The position numbers and the translations under genes are program-made. Below are positions 45,374 through 50,392 of a DNA stretch of 64,000 nucleotides, piece after piece; positions within the stretch are counted from its first letter, which is position 1; each line of letters opens with the position of its first letter. Source of the stretch: Diploscapter coronatus (lineage: Eukaryota > Nematoda > Chromadorea > Rhabditida > Rhabditidae); the NCBI GenBank assembly GCA_964036155.1, contig OZ038423.1:77329249-77393248 (forward strand). The letters are read 5' to 3'. The notes below the pieces were generated by a model that saw only the letters and a program-made list of their open reading frames with translations, had not been told where the DNA came from and made no database searches.

Positions 45374-46191
45374 GGTTTAGCTTGCCAAAAATTTATGAAA
45401 CTTGTTTTCAGGTATCATTATTGAATTGTTTTTTCCTGTTATACGTTATCCACTGCTCCTTCCTTTCCTTCGATTTGTGATGTTCTCCTGCACACGGGCC
45501 TTTCTCCAATGGTAGGCCGATTTTCCAATTTCTTTACTTTTTTCAAATTTCCAAATACTACAAAATTTTCTATTTTATTTATTCTATTGCCAATTCATTA
45601 TTGGATTTCAAGAAAACCATCTTTATGACCCGATTTCCTTTGCCATCCAGCCTTCTATATTTATTCTACTACGAAGTATTCTTCTTTCGATTGAATGCTT
45701 GTTTTATGAATGGAAGTTTTAGTCAAGGATTTGATTACTTATCGAAAATGGATTGAATTATCATTTCCAAAAATGTCAAAGTTAATGAACTGCTCACTTC
45801 TATCGTTTGAAATGACTTATTCTTTGAAAAGATTTTTCAATATCTTATCATCACTTCACTACTTATTGTTTACAACATAGAGTTCTAGTTTTGGTTTAGA
45901 AAGTAAGTAGTGGAATTATAAACTTTTCAATTACCTATTTTTAAAGATATCTCTGAAGTTTCTACATTTCAAAATTATTGAATGACAACAATTTCTTCTG
46001 TTATGAATTATGAATGGTTTTTTTAATCAAATTATCAATTATCTGAATGGCTCTCATACACCATTCGAAGTGCCATTTGAACCAAAAATCGATGAAAATA
46101 AACGATTTTATCAAAACTGCTTGAAAGAATAAGATATGTTACAACGAAACAACCTGAAACTTACTATGACCCATAAGAATTCCAGACCATT

Positions 46192-46298
46192 CGGAAATGT
46201 CGCAACTTGACGAAATAGATTTAAAGGTGAGAAGAGTGTAGGGAAACGCTCTTTCGTTTTTGCATACTATACTATCTCGTCAAGTTGCGACATTTCCG
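46192..46298. repeat. Perfect 22-base inverted repeat (hairpin)
   Basis: CGGAAATGTCGCAACTTGAC with GA at 46192-46213 is exactly complementary to 46277-46298, with a 63-base spacer. The arms lie in non-coding DNA about 1 kb upstream of the Hsp70-kelch gene. It could be a small foldback element or a transcribed hairpin. Confidence 0.7.
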
Positions 46299-46540
46299 AG
46301 TTACCGAATTCCATAAATTGTAGATCGCAAGAATGTCAGGAAGTGGTAGTGAGGGAACCTCTAAAGTAGGAAACAATTCATGTCCAGACTGCGGAGGCAT
46401 AAAAAGGCCTAGTCGAGATCGACGATAGACCTCATGAAACTGATCTGTGCCCAAAATCAGCTCATGATGATTGCATCTGCGGGGTTTTGTATTGAAAAAA
46501 ACGCGTTCATTTTGAGGTTTCAGTTTCCTATTATTTTCTA

Positions 46541-46848
46541 TGGGCGGCGTAGCGCAGTGGTTGTGTGTTACTGCCTGCAGCCTAGGGTCTCAAGTTCGGC
46601 CCCCGCCCTCACCCAAACCAAGGGGGTTAAGAAATGTTGGTAGTGGATCAAACCACGAAAAATTAGCCTAAATCCCTCGGCTGTTGTACACAACAACAGT
46701 CTGTCCTCGGGACGGGCCACTAGTCCTGTGTGGCTAGGATAGGCCGACTGTCCCAATAAGAAGGCTGAGCTTCATTACGAGCTTGAGGGTAGCCGACCCC
46801 ACCCAGTGGGAATAATAAGGCTAGGAAAAAAAAAAAAAAAAAAAAAAA
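46541..46848 (+). mobile_element. tRNA-derived SINE with poly(A) tail and 19-base target duplication
   Basis: The 5' end resembles a tRNA gene with RNA polymerase III promoter boxes: A box TAGCGCAGTGG at 46550-46560 and B box AGTTCGGCCCC near 46592. An unrelated body of about 200 bases follows, then a run of about 24 A. The element is bounded by perfect 19-base direct repeats (AGTTTCCTATTATTTTCTA) at 46522-46540 and 46849-46867. The perfect duplication and clean tail indicate a recent insertion made by a LINE reverse transcriptase that uses poly(A) tails. Confidence 0.88.
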
Positions 46849-47181
46849 AGTTTCCTATTATTTTCTAGGTTTGGGTATTGTTTTTATTTTTTTTACTTCA
46901 TCAAAATCTCAGTTACACCCTTGTGGACAATTTAACAACAAACTTGGCAATGTTGAGTGCGAATTGGGGATTTGTTTGCGTTTCCTAACTTCATGATAAG
47001 GTTTCTTCTCGCAAAATATTCAACATTGCTATTATCTTATCAACTCGCATTCCATGTAAAAGCTTGCTATCTTGCTCTTAATGATTATTGACTTTTTTTT
47101 TTATACATTTACGAATGAATGCAGGATTTATTTATTTCCTAAGCCAGTACAAATTTTTAATTTAAAAATTAAAGAATAAAA

Positions 47182-50100
47182 ATGGTTTATATCGGCATCG
47201 ACTTGGGCACAACATATTCGTGCGTTTCCGTGATTGAGGATGGACGGCCTGTTGTAATTGTTTCTGATGATGGTCTGTTTTTATTTTTTTTATTAACATT
47301 AGACATATTCACTTGTTAATTTGTTCACCGATAAACTTGTCACAAAATCGAGCTTTGTAAGACAAAATTAAATGAATACATTTTTGCAATTCATAGGTTC
47401 AAGTTTATCTTTAGATCATTTTAAAATTAATTCAAACACTCTTTAAATTCTGTGTATGAAAAATCGGCTATTTCAGGTAAACCCATCATTCCTTCCGTGG
47501 TCGCCTACTGTGATACCGAAATTCTTGTTGGAAATCCGGCATTAACTTCAAATACTGACATATCTAATGTTTTATACGGTTTTTCAGTATTATTTTGATT
47601 TTTTAAATTCTATAAATCAGATTCAAAACGGCTAATTGGTGCATTTCTGCCTGATAAAGAATCATTTTTGCCTTTCAGTGTCGAAACAAGAGATGTTTGT
47701 ATTTTCTTTAAAAAACAAATTGCAATAATAATTTCATATTTAAGGGAGTCGTTGGCTATGTACTTAATGCAGGTCAGCCAAATGAGAGATTTCTTAGATC
47801 TGAAGAGGTTTCTGCTGAGATATTGAAGAAGTTGAAAACGTTTGCAGAGGTATTTTCCTAGCTCTGAAAAATAGAATCAGAATTCAGGATTCCGATCCTC
47901 AAATGCATTATTATTTTAGATTTAGCAAATTGAAATTTCCTTTGTTTCAGAGGTATTTACCTGAAAAAGAAGTGACTGAAGCAGTCGTGACAGTTCCTGC
48001 CTTCTTCAATAATGATCAAATCGATGCGACAAAAAGAGCGATTAAAATGGCTGGACTCGATCTGAAATATCTGCTGGAAGAACCGACGGCAGCTGCAATA
48101 GCTTATTACAGCAGAATGAGGACAACTGACTCAACGATTATGGTCTTTGATTGGGGAGGAGGTTAGAATATATTTGGATATTTGAATATTATATGCTATT
48201 TTGGAAGAAAGTTGAAATTTTGTATGCAAATCATCATCGTTAAGAGTAAAAGATCTCGACCTTCCAGTAATTGGTATAAAACAATCAGAAAATGCAATTA
48301 AAAGAATCATTTTATTCTGATCATTTGATTATATGGCAATATATGCATTTATTTATGGATTGAAATTTCAGGAACCCTAGATATTAGTATCGCGGAAATT
48401 AAAAACGAAAAACTTGATGTGAAGTCAGTGTGTGGTGATGCCCATTTAGGTTTATCATATCATTGATTATGTAGTGTGTTCAAAGGATATCATTTAGGCG
48501 GTCAAGATTTCGATGAAAGAATAATGAAATATGTAATCGAGGAATTCAAGAAGTCGAACAACTTCGATATATCGCAACGACCAAAGCTGATGAAACGATT
48601 ACGGCAAGTGTGCAAAGAAGCGAAAGAATCACTGTCATTTCACATGGAATCGTACAATGTTAACGTAAGAAATGTTAATTTTATTGATTCTGAAACGGAA
48701 TTCATATTTTCAGCTGGATATTAATGATGATACAAGTGTGAACGTGAAAATTTCGCGATCTAACTTCAACCAACTCTGCGAAGATTTATTCGATAAAGCG
48801 ATGAGAATGGTTGAAAAAGCTCTAGAAATCGCACAAATTGACAGCGTGGTAATTTTATTATTACAAAAATCGAGACTCATGCTTTTCACTGAATATGAAA
48901 TTTATAGATTCTGGTTGGTGGATCAACTCGAATTCCGAAAATTCAAGAGCTTTTGTCGCATAAATTTGGTCAGACAAAATTGAGATACAATGCCAATCTT
49001 GAAGAGGCTGTAGCTCATGGAGCTGCAATTATTGCAGATACTTTGGAGGTTTGAAAATAAATAATTCATTATTGAAATTGAGGCTATAATTTCAGAAAGG
49101 AATTGACATCTCATTGATTAACAACACAGCGAATGAACTAGGCCGAAATATCAATAATTCGCATAACATTTTATTTTATTGTAAGAAATTATGTTGAAAG
49201 CTAAGTAAGAGACTCTGAAATGATTCGTAATAATTTAGTTTGTTATCGAAATAATTACGAAGATGAAGGAAAGATATGCTTGTTCAATTCATCTACCCGC
49301 TCAGTAGAAGAGATTGCGAAATTTCACAATTATTATGTGCCATATCGAGTAGCAACTACACAAAACCAAGTAAATTCTTATGCTCGTTACTTTGAATAAT
49401 TTCTCAAATTTCAGATTTTTGGAATCAGCGGCAGAAATAAATCATTTGAAATATTTGACTTGAATACTCGACAAATTTCAAGAGGTCTCTTCAACAAATC
49501 CATGAATGATCGATTCAAAGAATTTTACAGGCCCAAATCTTCCTGAATGGCGTAAATGGGCATCTGTCGCGTATTTCAAAAACAAATTGTATTATTTGGG
49601 TGGAAAGGGTCATAAAACAAAAAAAGATACGAATCGAGTTGATGTAAGAAGATCGAATGAAAGTCCATGAAATAATTTATTCAGGTTTTAATAGATGGAA
49701 AGTGGCAAACAGGGCCTGCTTTTCCTCTTCCAATTAGTTCTGTTCAAACAATAGCATGCGATGAAGTTTTATACGGTCACATTATAGCATATTCATTATT
49801 GTAATTATGGATATTCAGTTATTGGTGGTCATGAAAGTACAAATATATATCGATTATCAGACGATGAACGGGAATGGATTGAAATTGGGGAGATTCCAGA
49901 AAGACGAAGTTATTGCGGAGTTGCATTGCTAAATGGAAGAATTTACATAACTGGAGGATGGAGGTCGTTAATTTTGTATGATAAATAATGCGTTATTATA
50001 TGTTTAGTGGTATTAATGCATTAGAATCCTGTCTGTGTTTCGACCTCTCAGCTCCATCTGACAGTCGAATTTCCCGAATCGCTGATATGAGTTATACAAG

Positions 50101-50392
50101 ATATTATCATTCGCTTGTTGCTGCGAATGGAAAATTGTTTGCAATCGGAGGGTGAGCTGAGATTTTGCATATCTTTATACGAAATTTCGTTCTTAGATTT
50201 CAAAATACGAAGAAAAGAAGTGATGGTTTACACTGGCCAATAAACTTCTGCAATTCAATCGAGGAATACGATCCACAAACGAATACATGGCGAGAAGTCG
50301 GAATATTGGAAAACTTGCCTGCGATTAGCGAAAGTGTTGGAAAGAAAACGCACACTAATCGTACTAACGAGGGTAGCTGCCTTCTCAGCTGA
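47182..50392 (+). CDS. Hsp70 ATPase domain fused to a kelch propeller
   Basis: Seventeen exons with fully consistent phases encode 692 residues: 47182-47272, 47477-47578, 47621-47694, 47745-47849, 47951-48161, 48372-48449, 48498-48664, 48714-48848, 48908-49048, 49096-49180, 49239-49369, 49415-49484, 49531-49643, 49685-49775, 49819-49963, 50008-50151 and 50197-50392. Residues 1-368 are a complete Hsp70 nucleotide-binding domain: [11 protein letters not shown] (4-14), the catalytic Lys in SKRLIG (67), [10 protein letters not shown], the phosphate-2 loop DWGGGTLD (191-198; Trp replaces the usual Leu) and [10 protein letters not shown] (322-331). The DLLLLDV linker, substrate-binding domain and EEVD tail are absent. 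From about 390 onward there are five or six kelch blades ([38 protein letters not shown]). Exon 10 carries the domain boundary. The likely role is an ATP-regulated protein-binding factor in the cytosol. Confidence 0.85.

Follow-up and report, generated by a model that had tools for sequence, protein, structure and literature searches.

The window considered here, a stretch of 64,000 nucleotides from the nematode Diploscapter coronatus (assembly GCA_964036155.1, contig OZ038423.1, positions 77,329,249 to 77,393,248), contains on its plus strand a gene that very probably joins the ATPase domain of Hsp70 to a kelch beta-propeller. Splicing of its 17 proposed exons, whose coordinates and common frame were given correctly in the original prediction, leaves the terminal stop as the sole stop, and all 16 introns (41-210 nt) are GT-AG. 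Along the 692-residue frame lie the Hsp70 ATPase domain (nucleotide-binding domain, NBD), a short junction exon and about six kelch blades. The features are as follows (window coordinates):

47182-50392, plus strand: fusion gene; 17 exons, 16 introns, 2079 nt coding, 692 residues
47182-49048, plus strand: Hsp70 ATPase (NBD) part, exons 1-9, residues 1-368; recognised by Pfam and phmmer, intact in the homologue
47182-47272, 47477-47578, 47621-47694, 47745-47849, 47951-48161, plus strand: exons 1-5
48372-48449, 48498-48664, 48714-48848, 48908-49048, plus strand: exons 6-9
49096-49180, plus strand: exon 10, the junction; residues 369-396 and the first base of 397, ending in phase 1
49181-49238, plus strand: intron 10, 58 bp, phase 1; left edge of the kelch cassette
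49220-49222, plus strand: in-frame ATG within intron 10, a possible separate start
49239-50392, plus strand: kelch propeller, exons 11-17, residues 397-692; stop codon 50390-50392
49239-49369, 49415-49484, 49531-49643, 49685-49775, plus strand: exons 11-14
49819-49963, 50008-50151, 50197-50392, plus strand: exons 15-17

The Pfam HSP70 family matches residues 4-369 (profile positions 2-377 of 599, E 2e-105) and kelch follows in the same single frame, which confirms the predicted fusion. With phmmer, residues 3-369 align with the human Hsp70 ATPase domain at E about 1e-79. Among the 60 structure chains listed, the aligned stretch ends at residues 365-372; the one exception is 7n6g (Heat shock protein 70A), which aligns as far as residue 384, inside exon 10. 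No Hsp70 substrate-binding domain (SBD) was found in the window protein, the Pfam match stopping at 369 and the remainder being kelch; the claim that the ATPase domain is complete and the SBD replaced is thus borne out by Pfam. The conserved hydrophobic linker of the DLLLLDV type is absent from its expected place, where exon 10 stands instead. At this position the relatives read KGIEIPLINNTMNELAR, against VQDLLLLDVAPLSLG in the canonical Hsp70 of this genome; given the 7n6g alignment, the first part of exon 10 is possibly a degenerate remnant of the linker.

The C-terminal part matches Pfam Kelch_1 in three stretches (E 1.7e-25). By eye, kelch repeats start at residues 393, 440, 481, 528, 571 and 621, six in all, matching a six-bladed propeller. 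Its structure-chain matches are headed by designed kelch propellers, followed by KLHL3 and KLHL12 and, lower down, Keap1. Unlike the BTB-kelch (KLHL) proteins, the window protein gives no Pfam match to BTB or BACK at E values of up to 1, and Pfam finds no F-box in it. AlphaFold2, run with an alignment on P0001, a relative from Diploscapter pachys, gives a good kelch part that resembles KLHL kelch domains; residues 174-276 of the same model (the junction and a gapped ATPase part of the gene model) fall below 50 in predicted local distance difference test (pLDDT), and the single-sequence run gives a pLDDT of 39. The VIA listing for this model was filled by kelch chains and is informative on the kelch part alone.

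With cytosolic Hsp70 (HSPA1A/Hsc70) the protein shares the ATPase domain at residues 3-369; it differs in having no DLLLLDV linker, SBD beta domain or lid, and in altered adenine-side residues. HSPA13/Stch and HSPA12 are SBD-less or atypical Hsp70s whose ATPase domain lacks a canonical SBD, as in the window protein, and we know of none that carries a kelch propeller. As an architecture alone, an Hsp70 ATPase domain without SBD joined to a kelch propeller can be assigned with very high confidence.

Exon 10 consists of a segment in the linker position followed by the first kelch strand, SHNILFY. Since its last codons (..NILFY) begin blade 1, the strand crosses the exon 10/11 splice. The original prediction had the protein switch to kelch exactly at the linker; the SBD side is indeed kelch, but there is no clean cut, exon 10 bridging the linker place and blade 1. 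An open path through exons 9, 10 and 11, with intron 10 in phase 1, was obtained at 19 distinct loci by a search that accepted phase-1 exons only. Among paralogs exon 10 measures 55, 82, 85, 118 or 121 nt, lengths that differ by multiples of three. A phase-free donor scan, restricted to the 45 loci, besides the window, that have GTAAG or GTGAG close by as donor, placed the donor at a similar place, after about TTTTATTTTAT. Duplicate loci were removed: L010, L022 and L031 (duplicates of L040, L041 and L051) from the donor scan and from the charge-motif comparison, intron count and kelch tree below, and L051 (duplicate of L031) from the exon 9 and 10 dN/dS estimates and the distance correlation. 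Three fusion loci (L045, L046, L052) have GC in place of the GT donor after exon 9.

The junction also bears on the possibility that an Hsp70 gene lacking the SBD and a neighbouring, separate kelch gene were wrongly joined. Reading through exon 10 meets a stop after CKKLC, and the ATG at 49220 in intron 10 is in frame. That ATG is present in 3 of the 19 junction models and is replaced by ACG in the homologue; at the same site in 33 relatives with a matching intron, ACG occurs 23 times and ATG 3 times. The two-gene explanation was rejected because the intron ATG is not conserved. It also conflicts with a blade 1 that spans the splice, with exon 10 lengths in steps of three (in a search that required phase 1) and with D. 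pachys gene models that join both parts, and it is extremely improbable.

Three contigs make up the 169.7-Mb genome assembly, the two large ones measuring 87.7 and 82.0 Mb. As D. coronatus is described as having a 170-Mb diploid assembly, 2n=2 and a mean heterozygosity of 5.7% (PMC5483258, which also reports RNA reads and ESTs of the species), the two large contigs are probably homologous chromosomes. The homologue, L039 (from C1:82815097), has all 17 exons with their splice sites and a complete frame, which two indels, one of 18 nt and one of 15 nt, set apart from that of the window; it is the counterpart of the window gene, since its upstream flank is collinear. In the paralog L040 all 17 exons recur in a complete frame, each length difference being a multiple of three. 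In the window, NBD exons 3 (47621-47694) and 8 (48714-48848) are 18 and 15 nt shorter, respectively, than in the homologue and L040.

A protein search with residues 364-692 passed 65 of 1595 candidates. The combination of PF00012 with kelch, the architecture by which the original prediction proposed to check the fusion, is carried by four of the 65 (P0001-P0004), all D. pachys gene predictions. P0001 and P0004 read through the same junction by eye. P0017, also from D. pachys and labelled HSP70, likewise continues into kelch by eye. The best matches of P0003 in the window genome reach at most 92% identity. P0004 carries kinase, NBD and kelch domains. A unique or mis-assembled locus is rejected by the homologue, the paralog and the D. 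pachys models.

The fusion belongs to a large family. Counts were taken from scored lists holding the best 150 of 333 (exon 9), of 1137 (exon 13) and of 318 (exon 7) first-look candidates, and in these there are at least 210 distinct NBD loci and at least 25 kelch exons with an NBD exon just upstream. Of the 150 exon 9 hits, 24 have kelch exon 13 downstream within 3 kb on the same strand, and none has it upstream or on the opposite strand; about 0.001 per locus would be expected by chance. For exon 7 the corresponding counts are 34 downstream on the same strand, one upstream and none on the opposite strand. In a systematic sample of 20 NBD loci, drawn by taking each seventh entry from the exon 9 list, kelch follows downstream in 14, four (L049, L054, L056, L060) are divergent Hsp70s with an SBD read by eye, and two (L057, L058) have neither. 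An SBD query from the genome's own canonical Hsp70 found no match in the 20 loci; by itself it proves no absence, because it missed the divergent SBDs of those four. Plain truncation of Hsp70 was rejected on the same sample, kelch following in 14 and the other six being the four with SBD and the two with neither.

So large a copy number could also mark a decaying relic that arose as a fusion through duplication, multiplied by segmental copying and is mostly untranslated. Damaged or partial members exist (L057, L058, L071), and L050 has an intron 9 of 836 bp. Against decay stand the complete 17-exon frames of the window gene, L039 and L040, and the ratios of nonsynonymous to synonymous substitution rates (dN/dS). 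Between window and homologue these are 0.27 for the NBD, 0.28 for kelch and 0.31 for the whole; among paralogs they are 0.28 for exon 9 (19 loci) and 0.41 for exon 10 (12 paralogs). Both halves and the junction exon are under purifying selection. Compared with the median of 0.12 over 6760 pairs given in PMC5483258, understood here as dN/dS of allelic pairs, the value of 0.31 means that the fusion gene evolves faster than usual and is still constrained; given this constraint, the gene is probably translated. In exon 10, window and homologue differ by 9.3 nonsynonymous and 0.7 synonymous changes over 28 codons, a sample too small for a claim of positive selection. We judge a relic quite improbable.

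The nucleotide site has been kept in part and altered in part. With residue numbers that we take to be those of human Hsp70, the window protein retains D10, T13, K71, E175, D199, T204, K271, S275 and the GGSTRIP motif, and has E268 changed to K, R272 to E and D366 to E. The statement that every ATP-site motif is present therefore stands for the phosphate-site residues and GGSTRIP but fails for E268K, R272E and D366E, which are not canonical. L039, L040 and L088 share the phosphate-site residues that the window gene retains. In all 11 fusion loci picked up with a motif in which C267, K271 and L274 (in the same presumed numbering) are obligatory, position 268 is K or R, 272 is E and 275 is S; the ordinary Hsp70 loci of the genome have E at 268 and R at 272 in 4/4. 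From this uniform exchange of charge the nucleotide pocket looks more like one kept and altered than one decayed.

The same residues bear on a reading in which the ATPase head is inert or structural (a scaffold, a dimeriser or a nucleotide-stabilised fold) and kelch alone has a molecular task. It would accommodate the three changes, the loss in D. pachys P0002 of the equivalents of D10, T13, K71 and D199, and the two small in-frame deletions in the window NBD. The retained phosphate-site residues, the NBD dN/dS of 0.27 and a paired 268/272 charge change identical in 11/11 loci, as expected of compensation, speak against it, and we regard an inert head as unlikely.

Related kelch cassettes also stand behind other front ends. 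In a systematic sample of 20 loci from the kelch exon 13 list, the front end is F-box-like in seven, an Hsp70 NBD in four (that of L072 found after fetching further upstream, L088), a preceding kelch module in three and a protein kinase in one. Two others have an exon-10-like piece only, preceded directly by a decayed exon 9 in L071 and by an unrecognised region further up in L066, and three have no assigned front end. All seven F-box-like exons tested match F-box at E 2.4e-6 to 1.7e-3, two of them over the Pfam cut-off; an eighth test sequence, the upstream frame of L027, gave no F-box match. The kinase front end (L083/L080, C2:75780373-75785200, minus strand; Pkinase E 8.7e-38) has the shared intron downstream. 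FBXO42 is an F-box-kelch protein, and such proteins resemble the present family in that related cassettes sit behind F-box-like exons in this same genome; they differ in their F-box, whose place in the window gene is held by an Hsp70 ATPase domain. Plant FBKs are likewise named as F-box-kelch proteins (PMC8665587).

Further arrangements were seen around the cassette. At L089/L013 (C1:22256200-22260736) an F-box-like exon precedes a tandem pair of kelch modules, the joining exon ending in ..NILFYRKK. L053/L064 (C2:56278042-56280931) has an NBD, one kelch module and a second kelch module downstream on the same strand. An N-terminal region beginning RYLIKEEQM.. recurs upstream of the cassette (L017, L066/L087, L069/L085), with no convincing Pfam match in the two tested (L085/L087-type loci).

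Of 64 loci, 33 have an intron at least 75% identical to the 58-bp intron 10 of the window: NBD 16/24, F-box 7/21, tandem kelch 6/7, doubtful tandem 1/1, kinase 1/1, exon-10-only 2/7 and unassigned 0/3. A kelch tree of 62 rows (rows with fewer than 200 of 270 columns dropped) has a first split (support 89, not starred) that sets apart 18 rows, 13 of them F-box. The shared intron occurs in none of these 18 and in 32 of the 43 on the other side (window not counted), including 7 of its 8 F-box rows. The intron thus tracks the kelch lineage instead of the front-end class, a pattern that swapping of front ends within a single cassette lineage would produce. Four loci of the NBD subtype VFGAAILADAIE (L053, L055, L059, L062) lie 0.05-0.10 from their nearest fellow by exon 9, and the nearest neighbours of their kelch modules are loci of the other NBD subtype. 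Over 17 of 19 rows (good kelch coverage and no stop in exon 9), NBD and kelch distances correlate at r 0.27 (permutation p 0.004), and the two kelch halves at r 0.32.

The explanation we favour, with moderate confidence, is that the window gene belongs to a large family of fusion genes whose front ends may have been exchanged, with a kelch part that would bind ligand and an ATPase part that would act as a nucleotide switch or as a dock for co-factors. The exchange could have taken place at the phase-1 intron 10, by recombination or gene conversion between paralogs, and the Hsp70 part would then have taken the place held by the F-box in sister genes. The domain swap proposed in the original prediction holds in that the SBD is replaced, but it looks like cassette exchange at one intron and not a single swap, because related cassettes also sit behind F-box-like, kinase and kelch front ends. 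By analogy with KLHL and F-box-kelch propellers, the window propeller would bind a protein or peptide ligand. The ATPase domain, its phosphate-site residues retained, could alternate between ATP and ADP states and so alter propeller presentation or oligomerisation; alternatively, it might bring co-factors of Hsp70, namely J-proteins or exchange factors, to the ligand of the propeller. In this most likely mechanism, the architecture, the constraint, the size of the family and the shared cassette are observed, and translation, ATP turnover, coupling and the class of ligand are inferred. For the ATP-switched recognition role taken separately, the chances are slightly below even. The ATPase head might instead act as a titrator, sequestering J-proteins or exchange factors while kelch only localises it; an ATPase domain kept while the SBD is absent would suit this, and we judge it improbable.

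Several observations tell against exchange of front ends and an active ATPase. The phase of intron 10 is not independent evidence, because the junction search demanded phase 1, and L042 and L048 hold both domains, yet that search yielded no model there. L057, L058 and L071 are damaged or partial, R272E and D366E could weaken nucleotide binding, and P0002 lacks several catalytic positions. The kinase-kelch link in L083/L080 is one of position. The shared intron is absent from 31 of 64 loci, and its absence from 14 of 21 F-box loci implies that many F-box-kelch genes form a separate branch. On the kelch tree the classes are mixed, at low resolution and with both labels partly clustered: the NBD label requires 15 changes, of which starred, well supported branches force three, while shuffled labels average 18.7 and go this low in 16 of 500 trials. 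The F-box label requires 10, with one forced, against a shuffled average of 17.6 and no trial out of 500 as low. Because the kelch halves also correlate weakly, front-end exchange is not cleanly separable from conversion inside kelch.

Upstream of the gene, the window carries a SINE-like (short interspersed nuclear element) repeat at 46541-46848, with an A-run and a target-site duplication in the form of 19-bp direct repeats at 46522-46540 and 46849-46867; the homologous chromosome (L039) has an empty site. Among the best 40 of 304 copies, 23 of the 25 at 99-100% identity are on C2 and 13 of the 15 at 94-97% on C1, which would fit a separate active subfamily on each homologue. An inverted repeat at 46191-46218 and 46272-46299, with 28 nt arms that are 96% complementary and 53 nt apart, resembles a miniature inverted-repeat transposable element (MITE) or hairpin. 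Rfam and tRNA scans of the window gave no matches.

An expanded Hsp70 set has been described in the same genus: the Diploscapter 'Cluster III' of 59 genes, interpreted there as heat adaptation and placed by a tree of aligned full-length proteins (PMC6872716). The word kelch does not occur in the main text of that paper. Cluster III is described as a heat-related Hsp70 expansion, unlike the family presented here, and the two may well overlap. In agreement with the original prediction, no described Hsp70-kelch family was found in the open-licence literature searched, which leaves out most subscription papers.

In view of the F-box sister genes, propellers of this kind may act, or may have acted in the past, as ubiquitin-ligase substrate receptors. 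One recognition repertoire could then feed several outputs, namely degradation (F-box), phosphorylation (kinase) and recruitment of the chaperone machinery (Hsp70 ATPase). More speculatively, and rather doubtfully, a fast-diversifying kelch cassette with a phase-1 intron at its left edge, recombined again and again onto effector heads (F-box, Hsp70 ATPase, protein kinase, further kelch) in a parthenogenetic nematode, might form a combinatorial repertoire of intracellular receptors, of which the Hsp70 version would be ATP-gated and would recognise folded domains instead of offering a peptide groove. Hsp70 is normally defined by an ATPase coupled to a peptide-binding domain, and a conserved multicopy ATPase-kelch family would offer a natural test of the ATPase as a portable switch. 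Exon shuffling, too, finds a dense natural example in the shared intron and its numerous recent products. If Cluster III is partly a family of kelch receptors, the Hsp70 expansion of Diploscapter would need to be recounted by architecture.
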